Shown: positions 2,683-45,916 of the stretch, one piece after another
How the letters are laid out: each line of letters starts with the position of its first letter
Numbering within the stretch: position 1 is the first letter of the stretch
Origin: Beijerinckiaceae bacterium
GTDB taxonomy: Bacteria > Pseudomonadota > Alphaproteobacteria > Rhizobiales > Beijerinckiaceae
Length of the DNA: 64,000 bases
Assembly: GCA_030684835.1 (NCBI GenBank)
Contig: JAUXWZ010000015.1
Location: 62,001 to 126,000 of the forward strand
Direction: 5' to 3'
Position numbers and translations under genes: made by a program
Notes under the pieces: model-generated
Database searches by the model: none
Told to the model about the DNA's origin: nothing
The model's input: only the letters and a program-made list of their open reading frames with translations

Positions 2683-3702
2683 TCACTTGACGGCGTTCCT
2701 GGCTTTCTCGACGAGCGCCGCCGGGAAAGCGTAAAGCCGCGCCACGATCTTTTCGGCTTCGACGCCGCCGACCGCATCGATAGGCAGCTTCTGCTTTTCT
2801 GCATCGGCCAGAAATGCGGCGTCCTTCACACTCGCGTCAAAAGCTGCGCGAAGCGTTTGAAGGCGATCCGCAGGCACTTTTGGCGATGTGATGAAAGGCC
2901 GGCCCAGTTCGCCTGATGCGAGCAGCACGTCGAGAATGTCCTTCTGCTCTTGTGTGGTCACGAGATCGCCAACAAATTTCGCGGTTTCAGGCACGCCCGG
3001 TTGCGTTGACGGCGACAGGCGCGTGAGCACGGCGATGCTGTTGTTCTTGACCCAGTGATCAGGCAGCGACGACCAGGTGACGCAGGATCCGTCAACCTCG
3101 CCGCGCTCGACGGCGAGAAACATCTCCGTGTTGCCCGGATATCCATGAATCGTCTTCAGGTTCACATTGAGCAGATTGCGCAGCATCGCGATGTTGTTGG
3201 CCGAGCTCGATGTCGCGCCCGCCGCGCCGAACACAGCTTCCTTGCGCTTGGTCAGATCGTCCCACGCAAGGATGCCTGTGGCTCGCCACGCGAAACAGAC
3301 GCGAAAATCGCGGGTGATGCTGCCAAGCCATGCGTAATCGGTGAACTTGGCGCGGGCGGCGGCGCCCTCGCTCATGGAATCGTTCAGCAGGCCCGCGTTG
3401 AAAGCAACGACGGTTGTTCCGTCAGCAGGCGCGGAGCCGTTGAGATGCAGCACTGCGGTGAGGCTGCCGGCCCCAGGCATGTTGCGCACAATCACGTTAG
3501 GCTGCCCCGGCACATGACGCGCGTAATGGCGCGCAAGCAGGCGCGCGTATTGATCGTAGCCGCCGCCGGGGCTGACGCCGACGACAAAGTTTATGGTCTT
3601 GCCGGAATAAAATTGCTCGGGTGTCTGGGCATACGCGGCGGGCGCAGCCAGAGCGGCGAGGACGCAACCGATGAGCGCCTGCGAATGTTTGGTGTCGGTC
3701 AT
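2683..3702 (-). CDS. Bug/TctC-family periplasmic solute-binding protein
   Basis: A 339-residue exported protein of the tripartite tricarboxylate transporter receptor (TctC/Bug) superfamily. GGAGGA five bases before ATG 3702 fixes the start and leaves a clean signal peptide ending AYA. The mature part has the subfamily hallmarks: 'EQFYSGKTI', 'SPGGGYDQYARLLARH', 'PGQPNVIVRNMPGAGS', 'GYPGNTEMFLAVERGEVDG' and 'VPADRLQTLRAAF'. Bug proteins bind carboxylates or other small acids in the periplasm for TctAB-type permeases or signalling systems; the ligand here is unknown. It shares unusual segments (FRVCF, SLPD-W) with the copy at 11840. Divergent from the amidohydrolase at 3821 across 118 bp, so probably co-regulated with it. 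Confidence 0.9.
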   Translation of the reverse strand: MTDTKHSQALIGCVLAALAAPAAYAQTPEQFYSGKTINFVVGVSPGGGYDQYARLLARHYARHVPGQPNVIVRNMPGAGSLTAVLHLNGSAPADGTTVVAFNAGLLNDSMSEGAAARAKFTDYAWLGSITRDFRVCFAWRATGILAWDDLTKRKEAVFGAAGATSSSANNIAMLRNLLNVNLKTIHGYPGNTEMFLAVERGEVDGSCVTWSSLPDHWVKNNSIAVLTRLSPSTQPGVPETAKFVGDLVTTQEQKDILDVLLASGELGRPFITSPKVPADRLQTLRAAFDASVKDAAFLADAEKQKLPIDAVGGVEAEKIVARLYAFPAALVEKARNAVK

Positions 3703-3820
3703 ATAATGTCCTCCGGCTGTGCGCGGCTGGAAATGCGCCCTTCGTCGCGTATAGTGCCGGCGACCATAACCTGCAACGCGCAAGCGCGCGAAGCGAATGA
3801 ATTTCAGGGGAGTTAAGTCC

Positions 3821-4729
3821 ATGACGCGTGCACCATTGCGCGTAAGCCTGCCGCCAGATCCCAATACGCGCGCGCCGCATTGGACGGTGCCGCCCGGCGC
3901 CTGCGATACGCACGCGCATGTGTTTGGACCACCCGATCTGTTTCCTTACGCGGATGATCGCCGTTACACGCCCCCGGCGGCGCCCATCGAGCATTATCGA
4001 AATATGCAGAAGATTACAGGCCTCAGCCGCGCGGTTTTCGTCACGCCGACCGCGCACGGGGTGGACAATCGCGTCGTGCTGAACGCCATTTCAGTGCTCG
4101 GCGAAGACGCGCGCGGGATAGCCAACATCGACTACACGTTCTGTGATGCGGAAATCGACGCCCTGCACGAAGGCGGCATGCGCGGCGCGCGCTTTCACCT
4201 GATGGATGACCGGCCCGGCAGCGAAGAATTCCTCACCGATCATTTGCCGCGACTGCAGCGCAAGAACTGGATTCTCGATCTGCACGTCGATCCAAAGGAT
4301 TTGATCGACCATGAAGATTACATCCGCGCCCTGCCGACCATCACGATCATCGATCATATGGCGCGCGTGCGCGGCAAGGACGGCGTTGACCAGCCTGCGT
4401 TCCAATTGCTGCTGCGGCTTTTGAAGGACGAACGATTCTATGTGAAGCTCTGTAGCTTCGACAAGATCAGCGCGGTGCCAAAGGCGCATGTCGAAGGCTC
4501 TCTGCCTTTCCTTGACATGGTTCCCTTTGCAAAGGCGTGCGTGGACGTGGCGCCAGATCGCGTGATCTGGGGAACGGACTGGCCGCACGGCAACACGTTC
4601 ACGCCAGGGCGCGTACCCAACGAAGGCGATCTGCTCGATATCCTCGCGCAGATTGCGCCCGACATGGCGATGCGCAAGCGCATCCTCGTTGACAATCCCG
4701 CGCGCCTGTTTGGCTTCAAGCCTCTTTAA
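3821..4729 (+). CDS. Amidohydrolase, 2-pyrone-4,6-dicarboxylate lactonase (LigI)-like
   Basis: A 302-residue TIM-barrel metal-dependent hydrolase. The amidohydrolase signature is complete: DTHAHVFGP (His31, His33), LDLHV (His155), IIDHMAR (His179) and WGTDWPH (Asp253). Length and order match the LigI/COG3618 branch, whose characterised member opens the lactone ring of 2-pyrone-4,6-dicarboxylate in protocatechuate and lignin-monomer degradation. Some LigI-type enzymes are metal-independent, so bound metal is not certain. ATG 3821 has AGGGGAG eight bases upstream; an in-frame ATG at 3797 would place that site inside the gene. Convergent with the Pht5-like gene (6 bp apart). Family is firm; the substrate is a guess from neighbours. 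Confidence 0.82.
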   Translation: MTRAPLRVSLPPDPNTRAPHWTVPPGACDTHAHVFGPPDLFPYADDRRYTPPAAPIEHYRNMQKITGLSRAVFVTPTAHGVDNRVVLNAISVLGEDARGIANIDYTFCDAEIDALHEGGMRGARFHLMDDRPGSEEFLTDHLPRLQRKNWILDLHVDPKDLIDHEDYIRALPTITIIDHMARVRGKDGVDQPAFQLLLRLLKDERFYVKLCSFDKISAVPKAHVEGSLPFLDMVPFAKACVDVAPDRVIWGTDWPHGNTFTPGRVPNEGDLLDILAQIAPDMAMRKRILVDNPARLFGFKPL

Positions 4730-4735
4730 GGAGGC

Positions 4736-8063: not shown

Positions 8064-8158
8064 TCTGGACGCTCCGATCCACGATGTGTGGAGCGGATAT
8101 AATGCGCTAACCATTCATTGGGCAGATGGGTTTGTTAAAACCTGCGTTACCGCGCGCG

Positions 8159-9151
8159 TTACTGCGCCTTGAGCCCGAGTTCCGTGGTGATCTTGCGCCA
8201 GGTTTCTGTCTGCTCGCGCAGGAAGTTTGCCGCCTCCTCGGGCGTGCCTGTCTCGATGCCAAAACCAAGTTTTGGTCCCATCTCGCGAATCCGTTCGTCC
8301 TTCACGACTTCGCGGATCTCGGCGTTCATTTTCTGGATGATCGCTGGAGGCGTTCCGGTTGGCGCCATCAGCATGAACCAGCCTGAGAAATCGAAGCCGG
8401 GAATGGTTTCAGCGGCAGCGGGAACCTCGGGCATATTGTCTGCGCGCTTGTTGGACGCCAGCGCAAGCGCGCGCAGCGCTCCTTCGCGAATTTGCGTCTC
8501 GACGATTGACATGGAGAAAATGCCGATGCCTGCGCGACCTGCAATTGTGTCTTGCAGTCCCGCGTTGATGTTTGGGTAGGGCACAAGAACGAGATTGAGT
8601 CCCGCGCGCCGGTTCAGGGCCTGCGCAGTCACGCCCGCAAGATTGCGCGCCGAGTCGACGGCGATCGATAATTTGCCGGGCTCCTTCTTGTCGTACGCGA
8701 TCAATTCAGCCAGCGTCTTAATTTGCGTATCGGGATGCGCGACGATGACCTGGTGGCTGCGCGTGACAAGCGTGACCGGCGCAAAATCCTTGATCGGATC
8801 GTAGGTCATTTTCTCGATCAGAAACGGATTGGAAACCATCGCCGCAGACGTCGCGAAGAAGAACGTGTAGCCATCGGGCGCTGCGCGCGCGGCAGCAGTG
8901 GCGCCGATGACGTTCGCGCCGCCGGGTTTGTTCTCGATCACCACGCCCTGTCCGAGGCGGCGGCTTAAACGATCCGCCACCATGCGGGCCATCACGTCCG
9001 GGCTGGCTCCTGCGGATTGCGAGACGATGAGGGTGACGGGCTTCTGGGGCCATGCCTGCGCCGACGCTGTTTGCGGCAATGCAACTGCCCCGGCGGCGAT
9101 CGCGCCAAGCGCAAGCAGGGCGCGGCGCGAAGGTCTTATTATGGCGTCCAT
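8159..9151 (-). CDS. Bug/TctC-family periplasmic solute-binding protein, classical branch
   Basis: 330 residues. This is the one copy of the classical Bug type in the window: after an RR-containing signal peptide (cleavage near ASA-QAW) come 'WPQKPVTLIVSQSAGASPDV', 'LGQGVVIENKPGGANVIGA' and 'APTGTPPAIIQKMNAEI'. The others use NMPGAGS and ERGEVDG motifs instead. ATG 9151 is preceded by GGGAGGG, six bases away; a TTG three bases upstream is less likely. It faces the FAD hydroxylase at 9265 across 113 bp that contain a nested inverted repeat, suggesting shared control. Ligand unknown, probably an acid that feeds the hydroxylase/dioxygenase pair. Confidence 0.9.
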   Translation of the reverse strand: MDAIIRPSRRALLALGAIAAGAVALPQTASAQAWPQKPVTLIVSQSAGASPDVMARMVADRLSRRLGQGVVIENKPGGANVIGATAAARAAPDGYTFFFATSAAMVSNPFLIEKMTYDPIKDFAPVTLVTRSHQVIVAHPDTQIKTLAELIAYDKKEPGKLSIAVDSARNLAGVTAQALNRRAGLNLVLVPYPNINAGLQDTIAGRAGIGIFSMSIVETQIREGALRALALASNKRADNMPEVPAAAETIPGFDFSGWFMLMAPTGTPPAIIQKMNAEIREVVKDERIREMGPKLGFGIETGTPEEAANFLREQTETWRKITTELGLKAQ

Positions 9152-9173
9152 CAATATCCCTCCCGATATTTCC

Positions 9174-9218
9174 CCGCTGACCGAGGGGGAATTGACTTTC
9201 CCCTGTCGCGATCAGCGG
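9174..9218. promoter_or_regulatory. Nested inverted repeat, candidate operator between divergent genes
   Basis: The outer arms CCGCTGA (9174-9180) and TCAGCGG (9212-9218) enclose inner arms GGGGAA (9186-9191) and TTCCCC (9198-9203), with centres within two bases of each other. The element lies in the 113-bp gap between the divergent Bug gene and FAD hydroxylase gene, where an operator would be expected. No regulator gene is adjacent. The symmetry is seen in the sequence; the operator role is inference. Confidence 0.35.
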
Positions 9219-9264
9219 TCGGGATGGTATGTCATCGGCAAGGGCTTGCAAGGAGAAACGCGCG

Positions 9265-10824
9265 TTGGATACGTCGGCGGAAACCGGGAAATATCAAGTC
9301 GTGGTGATCGGCTTTGGACCGGTAGGAGCCATGGTCGCGAACCTGATGGGTCGGGCCGGCGTGCGCACGCTCGTCATTGACAAGACGCCCGACGTTTTCC
9401 CCAAGCCCCGCGCCATCGCGCTCGACCACGAAATCCTCCGCGCGTTCGACAACATCGGCGCGCTGGACAAGATTGAGCCCTATCTGGAGCCGTTCACCGC
9501 GTCGCAGCACTTTGGCGTCGATGGCAAACTCATTCGCCGCATCGACATGGCCCCCGCGCCTTACCCTTTGGGCTACGTGCCTTCGCAGGTCTTTCTCCAG
9601 CCCCCTGTCGAGATGGAGCTGCGCAATAATCTTGCGTGCTTTGCGTGCGTCGACGTTCGTCTTGGCCTCGACTTCGCTGGCTTCACGCAGGACGCGGAAA
9701 CAGTCAGCATCGAAACACGCAATGCGGATGGCGGAATCGAACGCTTCAAGGCCGCATACATGATCGGGTGCGACGGCGCATCGTCAGGTGTGCGGCGCAT
9801 GGCCGGTCTCGCACTTGACGATCTCGGCTTCGATGAGCCGTGGTTGGTTGTCGATGTTCTCGTCAACGAAAAAGGGCTCGCAAAACTGCCACGTACGTCC
9901 GCGCAATATTGCAATGCGACGCGGCCGACCACTTACGTCATTGGGCCGAAAAATTTGCGCCGTTGGGAAATCACCATCCTGCCGGGTGAAGATCCCAAGG
10001 AGCTGGAAAACGAAGAGAACGTTTGGCCGTTGCTCGCCCAGTGGTTGACGCGCGAGGATGGCGACATGTGGCGCGCGTCAAGCTATCGCTTTCACGCGCT
10101 TGTCGCCCAACGCTGGCGCAATGGACGCGTTTTCATCGCCGGTGATTCCGCCCATCAGCAACCGCCCTTTATTGGGCAGGGCATGTGTCAGGGAATTCGC
10201 GACGCAGTGAATGTGTCGTGGAAGCTGATAGACCGGATGAATGGCGTGGCGGGCGATCATGTGCTCGACAGCTACGAGCAGGAGCGCGCCGCTCACGTGC
10301 GCGAACTCACTGGGCGCATCAAGGCCATCGGGCAATACATTTCAGAACGCGATCTCGATCTTGCCCGTGCGCGCGATGCACGTTTGCGGGCGGAGGGGGG
10401 CGGCAGTGCGCAGACCGTCACGCGGCAGGAGATCGTTCCCCCGCTGCGGCAGGGGTTTTTGCACGCGGCGTCTGGCGAGGTGGCTGGCACGCTGTTTCCG
10501 CAGCCGTGGGTTGAAACGCAGGCTGGCCCGAAACGACTCGACAAGATTACGGGCTCGGGCTGGCGGCTGGTCTTGTTCGGCATCAGCGATTCCGCGGCGT
10601 TTGACCTGTCGCAGCGCGCGGCGCGGCTGGGCGTTGCCCCGGTGCGGTTCGGCGCCGGCGCCCTGCTCGAGCGCGATGGCGTTCTGCAAGCATGGTTTGA
10701 GCGCAATGGCGCTTGCGCGGCGTTGGTGCGGCCGGACCATTACACGTTCGGGATCGCGGCGGATGCTGTCGCCGCCGGAGATCTACTCGAGGCCTACACA
10801 ATAGCGCGCCAGCGCGCGGCATAA
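9265..10824 (+). CDS. FAD-dependent aromatic hydroxylase, MhpA / phenol hydroxylase-like
   Basis: 519 residues, group A flavoprotein monooxygenase. The FAD-binding GxGxxG is GFGPVG at residues 16-21, the CDGASSGVR segment is the DG motif, and GRVFIAGDSAHQQPPFIGQG is the GD motif that binds the FAD ribityl chain. A thioredoxin-like C-terminal domain follows, as in 3-(3-hydroxyphenyl)propionate hydroxylase (MhpA). Such enzymes use NAD(P)H and O2 to add an ortho hydroxyl to a phenolic acid. AAGGAG nine bases before TTG 9265 decides the start over an unsupported upstream ATG at 9229. The extradiol dioxygenase follows 12 bp later, so the pair would hydroxylate and then cleave the ring. Exact phenol unknown. 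Confidence 0.85.
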   Translation: MDTSAETGKYQVVVIGFGPVGAMVANLMGRAGVRTLVIDKTPDVFPKPRAIALDHEILRAFDNIGALDKIEPYLEPFTASQHFGVDGKLIRRIDMAPAPYPLGYVPSQVFLQPPVEMELRNNLACFACVDVRLGLDFAGFTQDAETVSIETRNADGGIERFKAAYMIGCDGASSGVRRMAGLALDDLGFDEPWLVVDVLVNEKGLAKLPRTSAQYCNATRPTTYVIGPKNLRRWEITILPGEDPKELENEENVWPLLAQWLTREDGDMWRASSYRFHALVAQRWRNGRVFIAGDSAHQQPPFIGQGMCQGIRDAVNVSWKLIDRMNGVAGDHVLDSYEQERAAHVRELTGRIKAIGQYISERDLDLARARDARLRAEGGGSAQTVTRQEIVPPLRQGFLHAASGEVAGTLFPQPWVETQAGPKRLDKITGSGWRLVLFGISDSAAFDLSQRAARLGVAPVRFGAGALLERDGVLQAWFERNGACAALVRPDHYTFGIAADAVAAGDLLEAYTIARQRAA

Positions 10825-10836
10825 GGAAAGCATCCG

Positions 10837-11739
10837 ATGAGCGGACAAAGACTGGCTATAACCGGCGTGCGAAAAATCGAGATGGAGCACGCCGACCCTG
10901 CGCGCGCCGCTAAATTTTATACCGACGTGTGGAACCTGAACGAAGTCGCCCGCGAAGATGGCTCTGTCTATCTGCGTGGCGCGTGCGCGGCTCATCACAT
11001 CCTCGCCATTCATCCCAGCAACGGCCCTGCACGCGTGCGTGAAATCGCGCTGAGCGCGCGTGACAAGGACGCTGTGGATGGCCTCCATGCGCGCGCCAAG
11101 GCTGGGGGCTTCGCCGTTGATGCGCCAGCGCCAAGGCACACACTGGATGGCGGCTACGGCTTTTCCCTGCGTGATCCTGGCGGGCGGCGCTTCTCTATTT
11201 TGTGCAATGCGCGCGATCATGCCGATGATGCGCAGGTTCGCGACCGGCCGTACAAGGTTGGCCACGTCAACATCAACACGGCGCTGATTGACGAGATGAT
11301 CTCATTCTACACCGAAGTCTTCGGCATGCGCCTTGTCGATCAAGCGGGCACGCAATATTTCTTCAATGCCGACTCGCCAGATCATTGCACGCTTGTGTTG
11401 TGCAAGTACGGCATGGAAACTCTGAACCACATCGCCTACGAAATGTGCGATCTGGACTCCGTGCTGCGCGGCGCGGGGCGCATGCATGACGCGGGCTATC
11501 CCATTGAATGGGGTCCCGGTCGCCACGGTCCCGGCGACAACGCGTTCTGCTATTTTGCGGGCCCCGAAGAGTGCCCGCTCGAATATACGGCTGAAGTTCT
11601 GCAAATCGACGAGACCTATGAGTTCCACGGGCCCGACCACTGGAAGTGGCCGCCCGGTCGTCTCGATCAATGGGGCGTCACGCCGCCGCACACATCGCGC
11701 TGGAAACGCGTGCAGACGCTTTACGGTTTCGCTAAGTAA
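10837..11739 (+). CDS. Extradiol (catechol 2,3-type) ring-cleavage dioxygenase, two VOC domains
   Basis: 300 residues with an N-terminal structural VOC domain and a C-terminal catalytic VOC domain. The iron triad of type I extradiol dioxygenases is visible: His143 (VGHVNI), His198 (LNHIAYE) and Glu249 (PLEYTAEV), with the conserved GPGRHGPGDNAFCYF in front of Glu249. It should cleave a catechol next to the hydroxyls to a yellow muconic semialdehyde-type product. AAGGA eight bases before ATG 10837 supports the start. It is the second gene of the 9265-12865 operon, directly after the hydroxylase that would make its catechol. No downstream hydrolase or dehydrogenase for the meta pathway is adjacent. 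Confidence 0.87.
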   Translation: MSGQRLAITGVRKIEMEHADPARAAKFYTDVWNLNEVAREDGSVYLRGACAAHHILAIHPSNGPARVREIALSARDKDAVDGLHARAKAGGFAVDAPAPRHTLDGGYGFSLRDPGGRRFSILCNARDHADDAQVRDRPYKVGHVNINTALIDEMISFYTEVFGMRLVDQAGTQYFFNADSPDHCTLVLCKYGMETLNHIAYEMCDLDSVLRGAGRMHDAGYPIEWGPGRHGPGDNAFCYFAGPEECPLEYTAEVLQIDETYEFHGPDHWKWPPGRLDQWGVTPPHTSRWKRVQTLYGFAK

Positions 11740-11839
11740 CGCGCCATCATCCGGCGGTCGCGTTTGCGTCCGCCGGGTAAAGAATGTCATAATTGACGTC
11801 ACGCAGCCGGAACGAGCTGCGGGCCCCGGAGGAACGAAA

Positions 11840-12865
11840 ATGGCGCGCCTGCGCACCCTTGCTTTGACATGTACTGGCATTATTGCGGCGACAGCAGCGT
11901 CGTCTGCCGTCAACGCCCAGAGCCTTGCGGATTTCTATCGTGGCAAAACTGTCCGCGTGATCGTGGGCTTCAGCAGCGGCGGCGGATATGATCAGTATGC
12001 GCGCCTGCTCGTGCGTCACATGGGTCGCCATACGCCCGGAAATCCGACCTATATCGTCCAGAACATGCCCGGCGCCGCGAGCCTCAAGTCCGTGGTTTAT
12101 CTGGATCAGGGCGCGTCGACCGACGGCACGACCATCGCCACGTTCAATCCAGGCCTTCTGTCCCAATCACTGACGATCCCTGAAAAGGTGAACGTCGACT
12201 TCCGCCGTTACGCGTGGATTGGGAATATCAGTGAGGATTTTCGCGTCTGCTTTACGTGGCACGCAAAGAACATGAAGACGTTCGATCAGGTGAAGGCGGC
12301 CAAACAAATCATCTTTGGCACCACGGGCGTCGGCACGTCCGCCTATATCGAAGGCCGCATGCTGGATGAAATCTTCGGCGTGAGCCTGCGGCAGGTGCAG
12401 GGCTACCCGGGGTCTGCCGACAAGCGCATCGCCATCGAGCGTGGCGAACTTGACGGCGATTGCGGATCCTGGACGAGCCTGCCCGACGACTGGCTGCGCG
12501 ACAAGAAGATCAATCTTTTCGTGCGCTTCTCGAAAAATCTCACGCACGACATGCCAAAGGACCTCCTGTACGCAGGTTCGCTCCTCACCGATCCCGAGAC
12601 GAAGGCCACCTATGATCTGCTGATGTCCGGCGCGGAAGTCGGCCGTCCGTACATGGGCCCTTCGGCGCTTCCCGCAGACAGGCTTGCGGGTTTGCGCACC
12701 GCGTTCAACGCGACGATGAAGGACGCGGAATTCCTCTCCGACGCCAAGAAGCAGAGGCTCGAAGTCAATCCGCAAACGGGCGAGGAAGTCGCCGAAACCA
12801 TAGCGCAAATCTACAAGACGGCACCGGCGGCCATCAAGCGCGCACGCGTCATTTCCGGCGAGTAA
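11840..12865 (+). CDS. Bug/TctC-family periplasmic solute-binding protein
   Basis: 341 residues with a signal peptide (VNA-QS) and the motifs 'FYRGKTVRVIVGFSSGGGYD', 'IVQNMPGAASL', 'GYPGSADKRIAIERGELDG' and 'LPADRLAGLRTAF'. GGAGG seven bases before ATG 11840 fixes the start; longer readings from 11486 would overlap the dioxygenase gene. It is the last gene of the hydroxylase-dioxygenase operon, followed by a strong terminator. It is closer to the copy at 2683-3702 than to the others: both carry DFRVCF-W, FN-GLL and SLPD-W. The pair flanks the 3.8-11.7 kb enzyme block. Ligand unknown; a phenolic acid or its precursor is a reasonable guess. Confidence 0.9.
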   Translation: MARLRTLALTCTGIIAATAASSAVNAQSLADFYRGKTVRVIVGFSSGGGYDQYARLLVRHMGRHTPGNPTYIVQNMPGAASLKSVVYLDQGASTDGTTIATFNPGLLSQSLTIPEKVNVDFRRYAWIGNISEDFRVCFTWHAKNMKTFDQVKAAKQIIFGTTGVGTSAYIEGRMLDEIFGVSLRQVQGYPGSADKRIAIERGELDGDCGSWTSLPDDWLRDKKINLFVRFSKNLTHDMPKDLLYAGSLLTDPETKATYDLLMSGAEVGRPYMGPSALPADRLAGLRTAFNATMKDAEFLSDAKKQRLEVNPQTGEEVAETIAQIYKTAPAAIKRARVISGE

Positions 12866-33117: not shown

Positions 33118-34185
33118 ATGCGGCCACAGCTCAAGAGGGCGACGTTCGCCTTCATCATTGCAGCGCCACTCAGCGTACCCGCTGGATCCGCGCTGGCGCA
33201 ACAATCCGTGCAGGAGTTTTACTCTGGGCCCGGCAAGCAGATGCGTATGGTTATTCGCACGACCGCCGGCGGCGGTTATGATTTGCTCAGTCGTCTTGTA
33301 GCACGCCATATCGGACGCTTTATCCCCGGCGAACCCCAGATGGTCCCGGTCAACATGCCAGGCGGCGGTGGCATTGTTGCAGCTAATTATATGATCCAGG
33401 TTGCGCCAAAAGACGGTACCGTTCTGTCGATTTTTAGCCAAGGCCTTGCGAGCGATCAGGCGCTCGGTCTCTCGCCTCAGTTCAAGGCCGATCTGCGCAC
33501 GGTGAGCTGGATCGCCAACGTCACCCATTCCAACCAATTGCTCGTCGTACATCGTACTGCGAAAACGCAAACGCTTGAAGAGGCGAAACAGCGCGTCACC
33601 ACCATTGGTACCACAGGGGCGGGCTCGGCTTCCGTGCAATTCCCCGCGTTCTTCAATAATGTCCTCGGCACCAAGTTCAAAATGGTGTTCGGCTATCCCG
33701 GCGGCGCTGAAATAGATCTTGCGATGGAGCGCGGCGAAGTCGAAGGACGGGGCACGAATCCCTATACAGACTATATGTCTGCCAAACCGACGTGGCTCCC
33801 CAACAAGATCGTCATTCCGCTCATTCAGACTGGTCTTGTGAAAGAGCCTGCGTTGCCAGATGTTCCTCTCCTATCGGACCAGAAGGTGCCGCCGGAGGAC
33901 AGACCGCTGCTTGATTTCATGTCGCGCTCCGCAGCGGTTGGCCGGCCTCTTGGCACAACGCCAGGCGCGCCAGCCGATCGAGTCAAGGCCTTGCGCGCTG
34001 CGTTTCAGGCGATGATCAAGGACTCGGAGTTCATGGCTGACGCCAAAAAGCACAACATGGACATTCGCCCGATGACTGGCGAGCAACTGGACAAACTCAT
34101 CCGCGATATTGTCGACACGCCAGCCGATATTCGAGAGCGGGTGAAGCGCGCGCTGGAGCCAAAGGACGGCGACGTTTTGAAGTAG
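33118..34185 (+). CDS. Bug/TctC-family periplasmic solute-binding protein
   Basis: 355 residues. A signal peptide (ALA-QQ) precedes 'RTTAGGGYDLLSRLVARHIG', 'MVPVNMPGGGGIVAANYMIQ', 'GYPGGAEIDLAMERGEVEGR' and 'APADRVKALRAAF'. The AGAGS triad is replaced by GGGG, and the N-terminal 'FYSGPGKQMRMVI' carries a two-residue insertion compared with FYxGKxI, so the ligand pocket may differ. GGGGAG upstream supports ATG 33118. It lies 41 bp after the LLM monooxygenase gene and 34 bp before another, damaged Bug gene. Confidence 0.9.
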   Translation: MRPQLKRATFAFIIAAPLSVPAGSALAQQSVQEFYSGPGKQMRMVIRTTAGGGYDLLSRLVARHIGRFIPGEPQMVPVNMPGGGGIVAANYMIQVAPKDGTVLSIFSQGLASDQALGLSPQFKADLRTVSWIANVTHSNQLLVVHRTAKTQTLEEAKQRVTTIGTTGAGSASVQFPAFFNNVLGTKFKMVFGYPGGAEIDLAMERGEVEGRGTNPYTDYMSAKPTWLPNKIVIPLIQTGLVKEPALPDVPLLSDQKVPPEDRPLLDFMSRSAAVGRPLGTTPGAPADRVKALRAAFQAMIKDSEFMADAKKHNMDIRPMTGEQLDKLIRDIVDTPADIRERVKRALEPKDGDVLK

Positions 34186-34219
34186 CAACAAGACAAGCAG
34201 CGCGGCGGGGAGAATGGAA

Positions 34220-35253
34220 ATGACAAGGCGAACGTTTTACCTCGCTGCCGCGCTGGCTGTGTCTGCATGCGCTGGCGCGCAGGCGCAAACCGCAGAAGAC
34301 TTCTATAAAGGCCAAAAGCTTTCCTGGATCTTGAGCGCGGGCGAAGGTGGCGGCTACTCTACCTACGCACGGTTTTTTGCGCCGATCTTCGCGCAAAAGA
34401 TTCCTGGTAATCCAAACATTGTGATCCAAAACATGCCTGGCGCCGGCGGTATTCGCGCCATGATGCACCTGGCCAATGTCGCGCCACGCGATGGCAGCGT
34501 GATCGGCCTCGTGCACGCGAGTGTTCCGTTTGCGCCGCTTTACGGCACCAAGGGCGCAAATTTTGATCCGCGCCAGATGAGCTGGATTGGCTCCATCTCA
34601 ACCGAAAGCGCCATGTGCGTAGCGTGGTCATCTGCGAGGATCAATAATTGGAAGGATCTCTTCGAAGTGATTACGTGGTCGGCGGAACGGGCGCCGGATC
34701 GCAGATGGAAATGCTGCCGCACATGCTGAACAGGCTGTTTGGCACAAAAATAAAGATAGTGTCCGGATATCGCGGTGGAAACGATGTCTACATGGCCATG
34801 GAGCGCGGCGAAGTACATGGTCGTTGCGGCGGCCTCGTGACGTCGATCAACACGACACGCCCTGACTGGTTTTCGCAAAAGAAAGTTACGATCCCGGTTC
34901 TGATCGCGCTGAAGCGCAAGGCGGAGTTTGCGGACACGCCGGCCGTGATCGAATTTGCAAAAGATGAGCAGACGAAAAAGATCCTGGAACTGGTGCTCGC
35001 GCCGCAAGGCATGGACAGACCAATTCTGGCGCCGCCAAACGTGCCCGCCAACCGGCTTGCAGCGTTGCGCGCTGCGTTTACACAAACGATGAATGATCCT
35101 GCTTTTATTGCGGAAGCCAAAAAGCAGAATATAGAGATCGACGAGGTTTCAGGTGACGACGTCGCCGCCATCATAGCCAATTCCTACGCGGCGCCTCGCG
35201 AAACTGTCGAAGCGGCCAAGGACATCATGAACTTCGGCGGAAGCCGCGACTGA
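34220..35253 (+). pseudogene. Bug/TctC-family binding protein gene with a one-base frameshift
   Basis: The first reading frame (34220 to stop at 34729) starts with a signal peptide and gives GGGYSTYAR, NMPGAGGIR and 'INNWKDLFE', then runs out of the family. The second frame (34648-35253) resumes with SDYVVGGTGAGSQMEMLPHM, GYRGGNDVYMAMERGEVHG and VPANRLAALRAAF. Joining GAA-AGT-GAT with one extra A at 34665-34666 restores 'KDLFESDYVVGG', aligning with 'KDVLESEMIVGG' in the copy at 17016. The lesion is therefore a single-base deletion, or a sequencing error in a short A run. The conserved Asp of GGGYD is Ser here. Start 34220 is chosen over 34214 because GGGGAG is seven bases upstream. Confidence 0.8.
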
Positions 35254-36074: not shown

Positions 36075-36095
36075 GCCGCGCGACACTTTTATTTT
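36057..36095 (+). terminator. Terminator hairpin overlapping the VOC stop codon
   Basis: CGCGCGGCC (36060-36068) pairs with GGCCGCGCG (36074-36082), and GTG/CAC extends the stem past one bulged A. TTTTATTTT follows at 36087-36095. The TAG stop of the VOC gene straddles the loop and the first base of the right arm. The T-run overlaps the 3' end of the convergent ubiD-like gene. Confidence 0.8.
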
Positions 36096-37552
36096 AGCAG
36101 GTAGCCGAAGCGTTCGCGCCCAAGTTTGCGCATCTCCGGCGAGGGCTGGTTCACCTTCGGGTACTGATCCTTCCAATGGAAGGGTTTGCAGGCGTCGATG
36201 ATGGCGCGGCTGTTCGTGAAATCGCCCTTCGCCTTGCGCTCAGGCTCGATGCGCGGATCAAGCGGCGTCGACCACGCATTGGTAATGATGTCGATAGACG
36301 TGGCAGGATCTGAGCGGGTCAACATCGCCCAGATCACTTCTTCCAGGTTCGAGACGTCAATGTCGTCGTCAACGACGATGACATAGCGTCCCGCATACGC
36401 GCCCGAATGGCACATGGCCGCAACGTGCCCAGCCTGTTTGGAATGGCCGCCGTAACGCTGCTTGATCGCAACAGCAAGAAGTAGCCGCGACGTGCCGACC
36501 TCATGCGCCCAAACAGCCGTCACGTCCGGCACGCCGGCCTTGACGATGTTTTCACGTACAATGGCGGAGCGCGTAAGGGCGCGATAACGTCCAATTTCGT
36601 CGGGCGGGCGCTGCGGTGCGCAGCCAAGCAGGATCGGGTTGTCGCGATAGTAAATTGCATGGATATCCATCACCGGCTCGTCACGAACGTCTGAACCGTA
36701 ATACCCGAACCATTCGCCGAACGGGCCTTCCGGCGCCACATTGCCAGGCTGCACATAGCCTTCAATCACAATCTCGGCGTTCGCGGGAACCGGCAGTCCG
36801 GTGATTGGCGCCTTGACAAGTTCGACAGGCTTGCCGCGCAGGCCGCCGATCACTTCATATTCGCAGACGCCATACGGAATTTCGCTCGATGACATGAGGA
36901 ACGACATTGGGTCGCATCCAACCACAATGGCGACGGGCATCGGCTCGCCACGTTGCTCGTACTTGTCGCGCATGATGCGTCCATGCTTGCCGGGTGAAAT
37001 GTAGAATCCCACACGTTTACTGTCGTGAATCATGACGCGATAGGTGCCGCAATTGATCCAGCCTTCATCGGGGTCGCGCGTCACATTGAACGAACCGGTG
37101 CCGATGTAGCGACCACCATCTTCAGGATGCCACATGGGCGTCGGAAAGATCGAGACGTCGACTTCTTCGCCTTTCATCATGTTCTGGAAAACGGGTCCGT
37201 CATTCACATAAACGGGCGGAATGCGTTTAAGATCGGCCATGTAGTTGAGGCGAAACGCCTCGCTCAATTCAAGCTTGTTAAGGTGTTTGGGAAAGCCGAG
37301 CGTCATCTTCTGACGATCCCCGCCAAAGAAGTTCACCAGCACGCGGCTGCCGGGCAGCGTACCGGGAACGTCCTCGAACACGATGCAGGGCGCCGATTCC
37401 TCATGCAGCACAACCTCGGAGGCCATGCCGATTTCTTCCTGCCAGTTGAGCCCCTTGACGGTTCGCACTTCGCCCATGTTCTCGGCGAGATCGAGCCATT
37501 CGCGCAAATCGTAATAGCGTAGGTCCGCCTTGATATCCTTAACGTCGGTCAT
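36089..37552 (-). CDS. UbiD-family decarboxylase
   Basis: 487 residues, typical UbiD/Fdc length. Active-site residues can be placed by the family pattern: Arg172 (CGTYRVM), and Glu275 and Glu280 in EGPFGE, five apart as in Fdc1. 'GTGSFNVTRDP' is the metal/prFMN-binding strand. UbiD enzymes reversibly (de)carboxylate aromatic or unsaturated acids with prenylated FMN made by UbiX, which is not in the window. Start ATG 37552; an in-frame start at 37642 would overlap the TAXI gene. Transcribed after a Bug and a TAXI gene (19 bp from the latter), so the operon couples acid binding to decarboxylation. Substrate unknown; phthalate-like or hydroxybenzoate acids fit the neighbours. Confidence 0.9.
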   Translation of the reverse strand: MTDVKDIKADLRYYDLREWLDLAENMGEVRTVKGLNWQEEIGMASEVVLHEESAPCIVFEDVPGTLPGSRVLVNFFGGDRQKMTLGFPKHLNKLELSEAFRLNYMADLKRIPPVYVNDGPVFQNMMKGEEVDVSIFPTPMWHPEDGGRYIGTGSFNVTRDPDEGWINCGTYRVMIHDSKRVGFYISPGKHGRIMRDKYEQRGEPMPVAIVVGCDPMSFLMSSSEIPYGVCEYEVIGGLRGKPVELVKAPITGLPVPANAEIVIEGYVQPGNVAPEGPFGEWFGYYGSDVRDEPVMDIHAIYYRDNPILLGCAPQRPPDEIGRYRALTRSAIVRENIVKAGVPDVTAVWAHEVGTSRLLLAVAIKQRYGGHSKQAGHVAAMCHSGAYAGRYVIVVDDDIDVSNLEEVIWAMLTRSDPATSIDIITNAWSTPLDPRIEPERKAKGDFTNSRAIIDACKPFHWKDQYPKVNQPSPEMRKLGRERFGYLLK

Positions 37553-37571
37553 GGCTTTTGATCCCAGTTGG

Positions 37572-38462
37572 TCAGGCGAGAAGGCCCGCATCCCGATAGG
37601 CTGCAACAGCGCCGTCATGAAGGGCGACGCCGCCAAATTCAAAGGCCTTACGGCCGTCGGTTTTTAGCTCCGGAAAGAGATCCGGCAAGCCGTCATAAAG
37701 CGCGTCCAGGGAAACAAGCTCTTCGGCGCCTGAAACGATGGCGGCTGTAACATCGCGCACGAGCGCAGCGTCGACTTTGGCGTGCGTCACGATCACATTC
37801 ACAACGGCGGGTTGCCGCGTATCCTCGCGCACGCACCGCAGCTTTCCCGCGCGGATCGTTGTAGGCCGATAGAGCGGCTGAAATGCGAGCAACCTGTCGA
37901 AGTCGGCGCCCCATTCAAGCACACGCAGGTCGGCGGATGCGTCGAGCGCATTCATCACCTTGTTTGGAATTGGGCATTGCAATTGTGCGTCAACCTCGCC
38001 GCGCTTCAGCGCTTCGGCCCCTTGCGCAAAATCCAGATTGACGATCTGCACATCCGCATTTGTCCAGCCGAGCGCGCGAAACATCGTGTCGGCATGCTGC
38101 GCCATTCCGCTTGTCGCGGGGCCGACGCAGATGCGTTTGCCCTTGAGTTGCGCGACGCTGTGTAATCCGGAAGCTGCGAGCGCAATAAAGAACAAGGGGC
38201 CGGCGTTGGCCGGCGACACCATGCGCAGCTCAATCGGATTGCTGAACGGCGCCTCGCCCCTCAGCGCTCTGCCGATCCAGTTCGACGCCATATAACCGAA
38301 TTGGATAGCCCCCGCGTCGAGGCTCTGCGCATTCTCGATGCTCGCCGACAAAGCGGCGACCACCTCAATGGGTTGCGCGACGCCGCGTTGATCGAGAAGC
38401 TGCTTAAGGGCGTTGCCCTGTGAAAGAAAAGTACTGCCGGGTTCGGCCGTGCCGATGCGCAT
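37572..38462 (-). CDS. TAXI-family (TRAP-type) binding protein without a signal peptide
   Basis: 296 residues. 'MRIGTAEPGSTFLSQGNALK' begins directly at the first strand of the TAXI fold; 'IQFGYMASNWIGRALRG', 'LKGKRICVGPATSGMAQHAD' and 'LKRGEVDAQLQCPIP' follow. TAXI proteins normally have a signal peptide and feed TRAP permeases. Here GGAGG is five bases before ATG 38462 and an in-frame stop lies just upstream, so no leader can be hidden. No TRAP membrane gene is near. The protein may act in the cytoplasm as a ligand sensor or carrier for the adjacent UbiD-type enzyme; this is inference. Second gene of the Bug-TAXI-UbiD operon. Confidence 0.8.
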   Translation of the reverse strand: MRIGTAEPGSTFLSQGNALKQLLDQRGVAQPIEVVAALSASIENAQSLDAGAIQFGYMASNWIGRALRGEAPFSNPIELRMVSPANAGPLFFIALAASGLHSVAQLKGKRICVGPATSGMAQHADTMFRALGWTNADVQIVNLDFAQGAEALKRGEVDAQLQCPIPNKVMNALDASADLRVLEWGADFDRLLAFQPLYRPTTIRAGKLRCVREDTRQPAVVNVIVTHAKVDAALVRDVTAAIVSGAEELVSLDALYDGLPDLFPELKTDGRKAFEFGGVALHDGAVAAYRDAGLLA

Positions 38463-38552: not shown

Positions 38553-39572
38553 TCAATATCCCATCATTTTTCTCACGCGCTGCACAAGCGGTTGCGGTGA
38601 AGAATAAATGGCTTGGACAAACTCTTGCATCTTGTCGCCCGCGAGGGGGCGCACCTCGAGCCCACGCTTAGTAGCTGTCGCCACAAACTCTGGGTCAGCG
38701 AGTGTATCGGCCAGCGCCTTTCGTAAAATGGCGACCCTGCCGGTAGGCACACCCGGAGGCGCTGCAACCGGGCGCGCGACCTCCAATTGCCCGAAAATGA
38801 GGTTGAAGGCGAGGCGGTCTTCGTCTGATGTGATGAGGTCGGACGCGTTGGGCACATTCGGCAATTCGGGATGACGCTCCATGCCCATCTGCACGACAAG
38901 CCGAAGCTCGCCCGAGTCGAGATACTTCTGATATTGCGACTTCACGCTCGACATCCAAAGGCCGCAGCTGCCGTCCACCTCGCCGCGCTCCGCCGCCAGC
39001 ACGACATCGCGCGTGCCCTTGTAGCCGTGGATCACCTTGATCTTCGCGCCAATCAGCGCGTTGAGCGCTACCGCGTCCTGCGTCATCGAAGTGGTGGGCC
39101 CATAAGATCCGACGAGCGTCTCACCTGCGCGCAACGCGTCGAGCGACGTCCCTTTCGAGCGGTTCCAGAAGCCGCAGGTTGTTACTTCGCGGTTTGCGTT
39201 GCCCAGCCAGTTGAACTTCGTTGCGTCGAATTGAACGCCGGAAATGCCCCACAGCGGCTCGAATGCGATCCAGCCCCCAAACACGCCGATGACCGTGCCA
39301 TCCTTGGGCGCGACGTTATAAAGCCAGTTCGCTGAGACGCGCCCTCCGGCGCCGGGCCGGTTCTGCGGCGTTACGACCGGCGCACCGGGAATATGTCGGC
39401 CCAGAAATTCGGCGATCACGCGGCCATACGCGTCGAAGCCACCGCCGACATCTGCTCCAATGTCGACGTTGATTGTCTTGCCCTTAAAGAAATCCGCCTG
39501 CGCAAAGACGGGTGACGCGAACGACATTGAGGCCGTGAATGCAGCCGCCGCCATAAAGTTGCGATTAGCCAT
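38553..39572 (-). CDS. Bug/TctC-family periplasmic solute-binding protein
   Basis: 339 residues with a signal peptide (VFA-QA), then 'FFKGKTINVDIGADVGGGFD', 'VVTPQNRPGAGGRVSANWLY', 'GYKGTRDVVLAAERGEVDG' and 'VPTGRVAILRKAL'. NRPGAGG is intermediate between the classical Bug motif (NRPGAGG/NKPGG) and the NMPGAGS of its neighbours. AGGGGGGA eight bases before ATG 39572 sets the start. First gene of the Bug-TAXI-UbiD operon; divergent from the SDR-AKR-Rieske operon across 159 bp. Confidence 0.9.
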   Translation of the reverse strand: MANRNFMAAAAFTASMSFASPVFAQADFFKGKTINVDIGADVGGGFDAYGRVIAEFLGRHIPGAPVVTPQNRPGAGGRVSANWLYNVAPKDGTVIGVFGGWIAFEPLWGISGVQFDATKFNWLGNANREVTTCGFWNRSKGTSLDALRAGETLVGSYGPTTSMTQDAVALNALIGAKIKVIHGYKGTRDVVLAAERGEVDGSCGLWMSSVKSQYQKYLDSGELRLVVQMGMERHPELPNVPNASDLITSDEDRLAFNLIFGQLEVARPVAAPPGVPTGRVAILRKALADTLADPEFVATATKRGLEVRPLAGDKMQEFVQAIYSSPQPLVQRVRKMMGY

Positions 39573-42977: not shown

Positions 42978-44012
42978 ATGAAGACGGGAACGCAGATTCT
43001 TGCGGCGGTCGCTTTGCTTGCTGCCAGCTCCATTGCGCACGCACAATCGGTGGAGCAGTTTTATACGGGCAAGACGATCAATGTAATCGTACCTTTCTCC
43101 GCAGGGGGCATCTACGACACGACGGGTCGCCTTCTCGCCCGCAACATGGGTCAGTACATTCCTGGGAAGCCGACGCTTGTCGTGCAAAACCAGCCCTCGG
43201 GCGGGGGTATCGGCCTTGCGAACCGCTTTGGCGCCGGCGAAAGCGACGGCACGCTGATTGGCACTTTGCAGCGTGGATTGCCGCAGCTTGCGCTCACCGG
43301 TGACCCTAATGTTCGCTTCGATCCCTTGAAGCTCACATGGATTGGCTCGCTCTCTGCCTATGCAAACGATTCCTACATCCTCTCTGTCAATTCCAGCCAT
43401 TCGTTGAAGACAATCCAGGAATTGCAAAGCGCGTCTCCGCCGGTCTTGCGTATCGGCGCCAATCGCGCGGGCTCGACCAATCTCACCATCGCGCTCGTCG
43501 TGCAGCACGCACTGGGCCTGAAGCACGAGATCGTTCGCGGATATCCCGGCGCGGCTGACATCAATCTTGCGCAGCAGCGCAACGAGGTGGATGGTCAATA
43601 CGCTGACGTCAGTTTCTTCCAAACTAACATGCGCGACATTTGGGAGAAGGGCGGTTTACGTCCGCTGGTGCAGACTGGTCGACGGGCTCGCCTGTCGTCG
43701 CTCGCGGATGTGCCCCTCGCGCGCGAACTTACGCAAGATCCAGCCATGCGCGCGCTGCTCGAATTTGCGGAGATGCCTTTCGAGATGGCGCTTCCGGTCG
43801 CGGGGCCCGCGAGCATGCCGAAGGATCGCGCTGCCGCGCTCAAGAGCGCGTTTAACCAGATGAGCAAGGACCCGGGCTTCCTCGCCGATGCGAAGAAAAT
43901 GAATTTCCTCGTCGATCCTATTTCGGGCGACGAAGTGCTCGAAATCATCGAGCGCGCTGCGAAGACACCGCGCCCCGTCATCGAACTCTACAAAAAGCTC
44001 ATCGAACAATAA
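42978..44012 (+). CDS. Bug/TctC-family periplasmic solute-binding protein
   Basis: 344 residues with a signal peptide (AHA-QS). Motifs diverge from the set: 'NVIVPFSAGGIYDTTGRLLA' (AGGIYD for GGGYD), 'VVQNQPSGGGIGLANRF' (NQPSGGG for NMPGAGS) and 'GYPGAADINLAQQRNEVDGQ' (QRNEVDG for ERGEVDG). The changes cluster in the loops that hold ligand in Bug structures, so a different ligand is likely. GGGAGGG seven bases before ATG 42978 fixes the start. Four bases separate it from the class II aldolase, so they are co-translated. Confidence 0.9.
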   Translation: MKTGTQILAAVALLAASSIAHAQSVEQFYTGKTINVIVPFSAGGIYDTTGRLLARNMGQYIPGKPTLVVQNQPSGGGIGLANRFGAGESDGTLIGTLQRGLPQLALTGDPNVRFDPLKLTWIGSLSAYANDSYILSVNSSHSLKTIQELQSASPPVLRIGANRAGSTNLTIALVVQHALGLKHEIVRGYPGAADINLAQQRNEVDGQYADVSFFQTNMRDIWEKGGLRPLVQTGRRARLSSLADVPLARELTQDPAMRALLEFAEMPFEMALPVAGPASMPKDRAAALKSAFNQMSKDPGFLADAKKMNFLVDPISGDEVLEIIERAAKTPRPVIELYKKLIEQ

Positions 44013-44016
44013 CGGG

Positions 44017-44760
44017 ATGCACGCCATGTACGAGGATCTCAAGGAACGTCTGAAAAACGCAGGTCGCGTGCTGGTGCACGAAGGACTTGGCGATTATGTC
44101 GCTGGGCACATCAGCATGCGCCTGCCCGATCGTCCCGACCAGTTTCTGATGAAACCGGCCGGCATGGGTCTCGATGAAATGACCATCGAGAACATCATCA
44201 CAGTCAACCTTGAAGGGCAGAAGACCGCCGGACCATCGCCCCGTCACAACGAAGTGTGGATTCATTCGGAAGTGCTTCGCCTGCGGCCGGATGTAAATTC
44301 AGTGCTGCATGCCCATCCTGAAGCTGCTGTCGCGTTCTCGTCGCTCGACAAGCCTCTTTTGCCCGTGAGCAACGATGGCTCGATCTTCTATGCCGGGGTT
44401 CCAGTCTTTGCTGAGACGACCGATCTCATCACGACGAAAGAGCGCGGCGAGGCGGTGGCGCGCACCATGGGCGACAAGCAGGCGCTCATCTTACGCAACC
44501 ACGGCATCGTGACCTGTTCGTCCAGCATTGAGGAGACAGTCTGGCTCGGCCTCAAGCTTGAGCGCGCGTGTCGCGTTCAATTGGCGGCAGAGGCGGCGGG
44601 CGGCCCAAAGCTTCTCGTCAAGACAGAGGAGCTGCAGGCCAAAGCTGCAAAAGCGAACCGGCCAGACCTCCATTCAAATGTTTTCGCATATCTGGTGCGG
44701 CGCGCGAATGCGACGTGTCCCTATTGCGAGCCGCAAGGCGGCATCCGCATCGACTCGTAA
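44017..44760 (+). CDS. Class II aldolase/adducin-family protein
   Basis: 247 residues. Zinc ligands are His98 and His100 (VLHAHPEA) and His162 (LRNHGIV); 'GHISMRLPDRPDQFLMKPAG' is the phosphate/substrate loop. The family includes fuculose-phosphate aldolases and decarboxylases; in aromatic operons it often cleaves or decarboxylates hydroxy acids. A C-terminal extension with ATCPYCEPQGG carries a CxxC pair not needed for the aldolase fold. Start 44017 is used; ATG 44026 is also possible. It lies between two Bug genes in the 39732-45916 operon. Confidence 0.83.
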   Translation: MHAMYEDLKERLKNAGRVLVHEGLGDYVAGHISMRLPDRPDQFLMKPAGMGLDEMTIENIITVNLEGQKTAGPSPRHNEVWIHSEVLRLRPDVNSVLHAHPEAAVAFSSLDKPLLPVSNDGSIFYAGVPVFAETTDLITTKERGEAVARTMGDKQALILRNHGIVTCSSSIEETVWLGLKLERACRVQLAAEAAGGPKLLVKTEELQAKAAKANRPDLHSNVFAYLVRRANATCPYCEPQGGIRIDS

Positions 44761-44784
44761 GAAATAGCACGGCAAAACCGCGCC

Positions 44785-44802
44785 GGGCGCATGCTTGCGC
44801 CC
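44785..44802 (+). other. Short GC-rich hairpin between aldolase and Bug genes
   Basis: GGGCGCA (44785-44791) and TGCGCCC (44796-44802) form a 7-bp stem with a TGCT loop, 24 bp after the aldolase stop. No T-run follows directly (CTTTT begins nine bases later). It may attenuate transcription or protect the upstream mRNA end. Confidence 0.4.
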
Positions 44803-44884
44803 GCGTGCGCCTTTTGGTTCTATGCGTTTCGTGCGGTCATGCGCAGTCGATAAGCGCCGCCGCGTCAACATGGGAGGGAAATTC

Positions 44885-45916
44885 ATGCGCGCACTTTTGC
44901 TCGCCGCCGCCGTCGCGGTCTCGCCGCTTACTTTGTCGGGCGCCTCGATTGCGCAGAGCGCAGACCCGGTAGAGGCCTTCTACAAAGGCAAGAACCTCAA
45001 CCTGCTCGTGGGTGTAAGCGCGGGCGGCGCCTACGACCTCACGCTGCGCCTCGTCGCGCGCCATATCGTGCGCTTTATCCCCGGTCGCCCGACCCCTGTT
45101 GCGCAGAACATGACTGGCGCTACGGGCCTGGTGATGGCGAATTATCTCTACAATGTCGCGCCCAAGGACGGCAGCTACATTGGCCTCATTCAGAACGGCC
45201 TCCCCACGTTTCAGGCGGTGGGAATGGAGGGCGCGCAGTTTGATGCGCGCAAGCTCGAATGGATAGGTTCGCCCGCTCCCACGATCGAAACAATGATCGC
45301 CTACAAGAAACGGACAGGCGTCGCGAGCATTGAGGATGCGCGGCAACGTGAAGTGATCGTCGGGTCGATTGGCTCGTCTGGGATCACCTATATGTATCCG
45401 CTCATGCTTAACGATATGGCGGGGACAAAATTTCGCATGGTGCCGGGATATACGGGGTCAGGCGCGCTCAACCTTGCGATGGAGCGTGGCGAAGTCGACG
45501 CGCGCAACAATTCGTGGGGAAGCGTCAAGGCGAACAAGCCGGACTGGATTGCGAACGGGGACATCGCCGTGCTCACGTATTCGGGCCGCAAGCAGCCGGA
45601 CCTTGCGAACAGTCCCCATCTTGAAGACATTATCAAGGACAAGACTGACCTTGCTGTTTTCAAGGTCGTGACTGCCGGCAGCCAGTTGGGTCATCCGTTC
45701 GCAATGGCGCCAGGCGTGCCTGCTGACCGCATCGCCGCTGTGCGAAAAGCTTTCGCCGAAATGCTCAAGAACCCCGAGTTCATGAAGGAGGCCGCCGCGG
45801 CGCAGATCAACATTGACTACGTCGACCCGGACGAGATGCGACAAATCGTGAGTGACTTGTTCGCCACGCCTCAGAGCGTTCGCGATCGCGCACGCAAATA
45901 CTTCGACCGCAAATAA
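44885..45916 (+). CDS. Bug/TctC-family periplasmic solute-binding protein
   Basis: 343 residues with a signal peptide (SIA-QS), 'FYKGKNLNLLVGVSAGGAYD', 'PVAQNMTGATGLVMANYLYN', 'GYTGSGALNLAMERGEVDAR' and 'VPADRIAAVRKAF'. GGGAGGG seven bases before ATG 44885 decides the start; upstream in-frame ATGs lack this. The same GGGAGGGAAAnnnATG spacing precedes the copy at 42978. Last gene of the catabolic operon, followed by a 10-bp hairpin and a convergent LLM gene. Ligand unknown. Confidence 0.9.
   Translation: MRALLLAAAVAVSPLTLSGASIAQSADPVEAFYKGKNLNLLVGVSAGGAYDLTLRLVARHIVRFIPGRPTPVAQNMTGATGLVMANYLYNVAPKDGSYIGLIQNGLPTFQAVGMEGAQFDARKLEWIGSPAPTIETMIAYKKRTGVASIEDARQREVIVGSIGSSGITYMYPLMLNDMAGTKFRMVPGYTGSGALNLAMERGEVDARNNSWGSVKANKPDWIANGDIAVLTYSGRKQPDLANSPHLEDIIKDKTDLAVFKVVTAGSQLGHPFAMAPGVPADRIAAVRKAFAEMLKNPEFMKEAAAAQINIDYVDPDEMRQIVSDLFATPQSVRDRARKYFDRK

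Follow-up and report, generated by a model that had tools for sequence, protein, structure and literature searches.

A divergent class of TctC-like receptors, multiplied in a Beijerinckiaceae genome, appears to be paired with its own, mostly fused TctAB permease clade

Many orphan receptors of the TctC/Bug type beside few permeases of the tripartite tricarboxylate transporter (TTT) family have been published for Bordetella, Cupriavidus and Rhodoplanes (PMC5994714, PMC5812351; here and below, papers are cited for their accessible passages). In Rhodoplanes sp. Z2-YC6860 there are 434 TctC homologues in 8.2 Mb, nine of them in full TTT operons (Rosa et al. 2018, PMC5994714); both a shared permease and a role in sensing have been proposed for these receptors (PMC5994714). 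Which membrane proteins work together with the orphan Bug/TctC receptors is said in these and other papers to be unknown (PMC5994714, PMC11452294). Here we analyze a stretch of 64,000 nucleotides, called the window below, from the Beijerinckiaceae bacterium contig JAUXWZ010000015.1 (assembly GCA_030684835.1; positions 62,001-126,000, forward strand; contig of 140,386 bases, labelled C104). Ten receptor loci of the TctC/Bug type lie in the window, of which one is frame-broken and the other nine are intact, and this array is a further example of the orphan-receptor pattern. The results go further than this pattern in two respects: most of the receptors belong to a divergent clade of TctC receptors, which we call class II (the classical receptors being class I), and this class has a permease clade of its own. 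The best explanation, to which we assign a probability of about 60%, is that a small number of TctAB permeases serve a large number of class II receptors in trans.

The receptors are numerous throughout the 4.93 Mb genome. PF03401 gave at least 141 matches (among the best 150 of 228 candidates) and a profile of the divergent copies at least 150 (among the best 150 of 272), the union being 215 places. In 1.82 Mb of DNA, mostly around those places, we found 241 receptor open reading frames (ORFs) above 40 bits, 227 of them with at least 280 amino acids. The receptors were taken from stretches around the best-scoring matches, so that all copy numbers are lower bounds; two weak ORFs below 40 bits were left out of the set. 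The trees also leave out 14 ORFs shorter than 280 amino acids, all scoring as class II and including both pieces of the broken window copy.

The receptor tree separates 201 class II from 26 classical ORFs, with a support of 0.999 for the class II clade. Two of the 201, on contig C116, have a long branch and score with the classical profile alone, which leaves 199 sure members. These two receptor-like ORFs (L135:4522-6425, G000:C116), which stand beside the class II clade in the tree, adjoin a classical receptor. All eight intact class II copies of the window fall in the 201-member clade, and the copy at 8159 falls in the classical group; for both pieces of the broken copy the divergent profile outscores the classical one (151 vs 60 bits for the first and 202 vs 23 for the second). 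A preliminary description of this DNA had grouped nine copies as one subfamily apart from that at 8159, and this grouping is borne out by the tree for the eight intact copies and by the profile scores for the broken one. Unrelated families are thereby ruled out for the eight. The median identity to the nearest neighbour among the 201 copies is 48%, and the nearest relative lies on the same contig in only 8 cases; judged from these comparisons the class II copies are dispersed and old. Tandem duplication within the window is ruled out, as the window copies are at most 42% identical and the intact ones have their nearest relatives on other contigs.

Next we consider the permeases. A genome-wide family search found 9 TctA and 9 TctB matches, all on contigs other than C104. 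The absence of a TctA/TctB permease from the array, noticed earlier within the window, thus extends to the whole contig: there is no TctA or TctB in the window or elsewhere on C104, hence no complete TTT operon with adjacent tctA and tctB, and a TctAB set just outside the window is ruled out. Four of the nine TctA are TctA-TctB fusions of 693-712 amino acids, located on contigs C172, C63 (two) and C159. Each carries PF01970 and PF07331 in one open frame, with the TctA part first and the TctB part last, and so qualifies as a TTT permease. On C200 and C87 separate TctA and TctB are followed by class II receptors, while the TctA set on C52 adjoins a classical receptor; in the stretch covered, no receptor occurs within 9 kb of the TctA on C184 and C185.

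The TctA sequences of this genome, its congeners and other genomes of the order form two clades, which are separated by a branch of 1.19 with an SH-aLRT (approximate likelihood ratio test) support of 100. The tree has 75 rows, or 69 after merging of duplicates; TctA pieces with fewer than 330 matched residues were left out, including the flanking frames of loci L228, L234 and L236. Clade I loci are flanked by a classical receptor in 25 cases, by a class II receptor in none and by no receptor in 10, whereas clade II loci are flanked by a class II receptor in 19 cases, by a classical one in none and by no receptor in 15. Not one of the 69 loci crosses between the classes (Fisher 7e-13). The loci came from three kinds of search: one with the TctA family, which selected neither side, one with class II receptors, which selected the receptor and left the permease clade as the test, and one with a fusion profile, which selected the permease and left the receptor class as the test. 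Flanks were taken up to 1.5 kb from the match; for fusions found via the TctA family this is about 0.8 kb past the end of TctB, and less at contig ends. Single-chain fusions make up at least 28 of the 34 rows of clade II, and the other rows are unfused or cut by the end of the locus. These trees support a separate permease clade, mostly of fused TctAB, that belongs to the class II receptors. The shared distant permeases that had been suggested for the array are supported as well and take concrete form in this TctA clade, which is encoded elsewhere in the genome and is found in 23 of 24 congeners.

The same association is seen when presence is counted by genome. Among 296 other genomes of the order, 15 have both a class II receptor and a fusion-type permease, 6 have the receptor only, 5 the permease only and 270 neither (Fisher 1e-16); in total the receptor occurs in 21 genomes (E 1e-40) and the permease in 20 (E 1e-150). 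Genomes are not independent of each other, and hence we also counted by genus: of 117 genera, 15 have the receptor, 12 the permease and 9 both (Fisher 1e-7). In other genera 12 of 19 fusion loci are flanked by a class II receptor and none by a classical one. In the tree, eight other-genus receptors that adjoin fusion-profile permeases are nested together with the window copies in one clade of 199 leaves (support 0.976). The receptor and the permease of class II behave as a pair across the order.

The class II expansion is a feature of the window's genus. At E 1e-40 class II receptors are present in 24 of 24 congeners, with at least 52 copies in 20 of them; a deeper count gave 7 to 101 class II receptors in 13 congeners, two of which (G008 and G018) were partly scored. 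The class is absent from the 13 listed genomes of other genera of the same family. Order-wide it occurs in 22 of 297 genomes, the present one included, and in a phylum-wide draw in 2 of 397 (E 1e-40, again including this genome), so that it is rare in that draw. The fused permease has four copies in this genome and one or two matches in each of 23 congeners (24 of 25 genomes in all). None of nine fusions in the genus (four from this genome, five from congeners) has a receptor directly adjoining, and eight have none in the flank; the fusion on C159 has a class II receptor 1.25 kb off, beyond an opposite-strand gene. This receptor, C159:2477-3622, is the one nearest to a fused permease in the genome, and the window copy at 33118 is 59% identical to it. 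The strongest single case for a shared permease is congener G010 (96% complete, 350 contigs), in which we found 45 class II receptors (E 1e-40) but just one TctA of whatever kind, the fusion. In this genus the receptor has multiplied, and the permease has stayed few-copy and unlinked.

The fact that the two classes pair order-wide, that the receptor is multiplied and that the permease is few-copy and encoded apart makes a shared permease in trans the plainest mechanism. The class II copies of the window, which belong to a divergent TctC clade, would be exported as solute-binding proteins, and each would bind its own small acid in the periplasm. The loaded receptor would then pass the acid on to a class II TctA-TctB, a membrane permease that is usually a single polypeptide, of which the genome encodes a few copies at other places and which the receptors would share. 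We infer physical docking and transport in trans from co-location, co-occurrence and the trees. A precedent for a receptor encoded apart from its permease genes is TphC with TpiBA (PMC8556258). A stronger proposal, to which we give somewhat less than even odds, is that class II forms a TTT type of its own that is built as a hub, in which one single-chain TctAB would accept dozens to hundreds of interchangeable receptors, many with catabolic neighbours of their own. If this is true, new substrates could be gained by copying the receptor alone, and G010 would be the extreme case.

Several observations weigh against a shared permease. A study of tripartite ATP-independent periplasmic (TRAP) transporters reports receptor-membrane pairs that are specific rather than promiscuous (PMC5812351). 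The main exception is congener G005 (95% complete, 390 contigs), which has 53 class II receptors and no fusion match; its one TctA belongs to clade I and stands with a classical receptor. In congener G006 the TctA part of the permease is seen alone, at a contig end. Of the 21 receptor-bearing order genomes, 6 have no fusion-type match. In favour of the pairing, all six have a TctA frame in the flank of a class II receptor (L228, L231-L234, L236); one of these TctA is unfused (G039, 553 amino acids) and the others are cut by the end of the locus. Conversely, 5 of the 20 fusion-type genomes have no class II receptor at the cut-off; in three of them (L270-L272) the flank does hold a class II-like receptor, though a weaker one (103-120 bits). 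Each presence call took in the best 7 or 3 candidates of a genome, and these counts may therefore include misses. In addition, 7 of the 19 other-genus fusion loci have no receptor in the flank, and the class calls are thin in L271 (112 vs 91 bits), L270 (120 vs 81) and L235 (163 vs 122).

All ten receptor copies were located in the window where the preliminary description had placed them, that at 34220 being broken. They are listed here, together with two other proteins that are discussed below; receptors are named in the text by their first position.

2683-3702, minus strand: class II TctC-like receptor, divergent from an amidohydrolase gene; start picked by codon score
4736-5740, minus strand: protein of NMT1/phosphonate-binding fold ('Pht5-like' in the preliminary description), no signal-like N terminus
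8159-9151, minus strand: classical (class I) TctC/Bug receptor; PF03401 192 bits, in the classical tree group
11840-12865, plus strand: class II receptor, 3' of a glyoxalase/dioxygenase-family gene; 93% kept in relative L079
17016-18044, plus strand: class II receptor between opposite-strand genes; PF03401 62.7 bits, structure modelled
21673-22698, minus strand: class II receptor between opposite-strand genes
33118-34185, plus strand: class II receptor, 3' of a luciferase-like monooxygenase gene
34214-35253, plus strand: frame-broken class II receptor; pieces 34214-34729 and 34648-35253 in different frames, searched separately
37572-38462, minus strand: TAXI-like (PF16868) protein in the UbiD string, no signal-like N terminus
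38553-39572, minus strand: class II receptor heading the gene string receptor - TAXI-like - UbiD
42978-44012, plus strand: class II receptor flanked by a LigXa-type Rieske oxygenase gene and a class II aldolase-family gene
44885-45916, plus strand: class II receptor, 3' of the same aldolase-family gene

The Pfam scores of most class II copies in the window are low. PF03401 is above its cut-off in three of the nine intact copies (8159, 17016 and 38553) and in the first broken piece (28.2 bits). The copy at 33118 reaches 21.4 bits, below the cut-off of 27, and those at 2683, 11840, 21673, 42978 and 44885 have no TctC match at E 1e-3 in the Pfam scan, which for 11840 used the longer frame 11486-12865. 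No NCBIfam model matched class II (8 of 8 copies scanned). Two results nevertheless mark the copies as TctC-like. The first is that a profile of the eight intact class II copies, which is bound to recover the copies it was built from, also matches the sequences of 11 solved TTT receptors (E 3e-14 to 9e-8). The second is the set of fold matches. One of the nine intact copies, that at 17016, was modelled with AlphaFold2 (pLDDT, the predicted local distance difference test score, 87); the top 17 fold matches of this model in the PDB are all TTT receptors (E 5e-15 to 3e-11), the next best being at 8e-8. Judged on this one predicted model, the window receptors would have the Bug/TctC fold. By the profile matches and the tree, class II shares descent with classical TctC as a distinct sister clade. 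The motifs GGGYD, NMPGAGS and ERGEVDG, given earlier as marks of the subfamily, hold as a consensus but not as a strict mark, since they are exact in 4, 3 and 2 of the eight intact copies. With a home-made signal-peptide rule, putative export signals were flagged in 140 of 199 class II copies vs 48 of 179 controls and 49 of 303 neighbours. The class II copies are predicted to be exported and to bind small acids or carboxylates.

The two proteins of similar fold had been counted as further binding proteins, yet neither resembles a periplasmic receptor, as both are devoid of a signal-like N terminus. The TAXI-like protein (37572-38462), which our home-made gene calls missed, starts at the mature domain with a stop in frame upstream, and is probably not a periplasmic receptor. 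It may be a cytoplasmic partner or an enzyme with a binding-protein fold. Its gene adjoins that of a UbiD-family decarboxylase, both lying within 36089-38462.

The view that the receptors sit one or two per catabolic operon holds for 11840, for 33118 with the broken copy, for 38553 and for 42978 with 44885. It fails for 2683, 17016 and 21673, which are flanked by opposite-strand genes, and for 8159, whose same-strand partner is only a DUF3047 gene. The further suggestion that each operon carries its own receptor is not supported in this form, both for the three copies without an adjacent same-strand gene and in view of the nearest named relative, the metagenome-assembled 'Beijerinckiaceae bacterium' of locus L079 (one locus, found with a single-protein query). 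It keeps the 11840 and 17016 receptors, each at 93%, and at the corresponding place is without the stretch 8154-11751 (the classical receptor, a flavin-dependent (FAD) monooxygenase and glyoxalase/dioxygenase-family genes), so that the 11840 receptor persists there without its neighbouring hydroxylase and dioxygenase-family genes. In this single comparison the neighbour genes turned over and the receptors stayed. The pieces of the broken copy share 68% and 64% identity with C161:50814-51866 in this genome; the break may be either a biological lesion or an assembly error. A hybrid histidine kinase gene (23517-25571), whose product is a possible sensor partner, is separated from the 21673 receptor by about 0.8 kb that hold a glutathione S-transferase (GST)-family gene. 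A run of six alpha-amylase-domain genes, including GlgE-like and GlgB-like ones, occupies 47166-61237.

By the home-made gene calls, a gene that is not a receptor lies on the same strand within 150 bp of 111 of the 199 class II receptors. For a test of neighbour families, the first 110 of a random 140 were taken from 294 eligible neighbours (of both receptor classes) and from 169 eligible controls; the latter include some genes near TctA (TctA 2, TctB 3 of 110), stretches around TctA being in the sample. Among the matches listed, three families lead in the immediate neighbours, namely arylmalonate decarboxylase (6), glyoxalase/dioxygenase (6) and luciferase-like monooxygenase (5). None of the three is found more than once in 110 controls, which are led by ABC_tran (9/110). 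Judged by these families and by the 111 linked copies, many but by no means all receptors are linked to other genes, and these are often catabolic. MFS_1 occurs in 2 of the 110 neighbours and ABC_tran in at most 2 (it is absent from the 25 families listed), which rules out neighbouring carriers of the major facilitator superfamily (MFS) or the ATP-binding cassette (ABC) type as general partner.

These data also bear on other explanations of the array. The receptors could be mainly sensors, in which case the loaded proteins would touch histidine kinases, chemoreceptors or other regulators and turn catabolic genes on without delivery to a permease. For orphan TctC proteins this idea is already published, and Rosa et al. 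report such genes close to 14 of 22 kinase genes (PMC5994714); the hybrid kinase gene of the window as well as HisKA_2 in 2 of the 110 sampled neighbours would fit it. We consider it unlikely, however, since enzyme families lead among the 25 listed, of which HisKA_2 is the sole sensor family, and the strict pairing with a permease clade marks the class as at heart a transport component, which could still have a second role.

Delivery to other transporter families (MFS, ABC, TRAP) or to classical TctAB sets seems a little less probable still. No MFS carrier is known to require a binding protein. The low counts of MFS_1 and ABC_tran beside receptors, together with the lack of any class II receptor adjoining a clade I TctA among the 69 loci, argue against it in spite of the MFS genes at 1386 and 14214 in the window, the lone clade I TctA of G005 and the ABC (41) and TRAP (8) genes to which some Rhodoplanes receptors are linked (PMC5994714). 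Least probable in our view is a largely neutral expansion, with dispersed duplicates persisting with little function. The frame-broken copy, the three window copies without a same-strand neighbour and the 14 of 241 ORFs below 280 amino acids (some of which are pieces of one gene or cut by contig ends) are what one would expect from it; on the other hand the median identity of 48% means that most copies are old and yet have kept an open frame, and two window copies are 93% kept in L079. Sharing of a permease in trans hence stays the preferred reading.

If so, the old puzzle of the lone receptors becomes testable via a likely shared two-in-one permease: where a receptor clade belongs with a single recognisable permease clade, and some genomes show only one or two of these permeases, there is a well-defined gene for deletion and a well-defined pair for reconstitution. 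Moreover, published receptor counts may be low for some lineages, because class II has no NCBIfam model, because its window copies mostly score below the Pfam cut-off or close to it, and because most of the class escapes the BLAST cut-off used in print. With the 26 classical sequences as queries, blastp finds 8 of the 201 class II copies at 1e-15, 48 at 1e-10 and 179 at 1e-5. The copies in Rhodoplanes sp. Z2-YC6860 were found by tblastn from classical queries at the first of these values (PMC5994714). That organism is likewise an alphaproteobacterium with hundreds of dispersed TctC homologues, 434 in 8.2 Mb vs a density of at least 46 per Mb here, but the accessible passages name no receptor class or matching permease class (PMC5994714).

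In the open-licence literature, as far as titles, abstract starts and passages go, we found no paper that ties a receptor clade to a fused TctAB. The Bordetella Bug proteins resemble the present case in their many orphan TctC homologues and 2 to 8 TctA per genome, and differ in that no fused permease is tied to them in those passages (PMC5812351, PMC11452294). Solved TTT receptors, Bug included, match class II weakly (profile E 3e-14 or worse; fold alignments with 16-20% identity); TphC (7ndr) is among these weak matches. Fused TctAB has been noted in rare cases, and so has a group of TTT sets, slcHFG among them, in which tctB follows tctA (PMC5812351); these share the A-then-B order and the fusion with class II, and are tied there to neither a receptor clade nor an orphan expansion (PMC5812351). 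In TphC/TpiBA of Comamonas TpiB and TpiA are separate, and one receptor serves one permease pair; as in several loci of the window, the receptor gene stands in a catabolic operon and the permease genes in another (PMC8556258).

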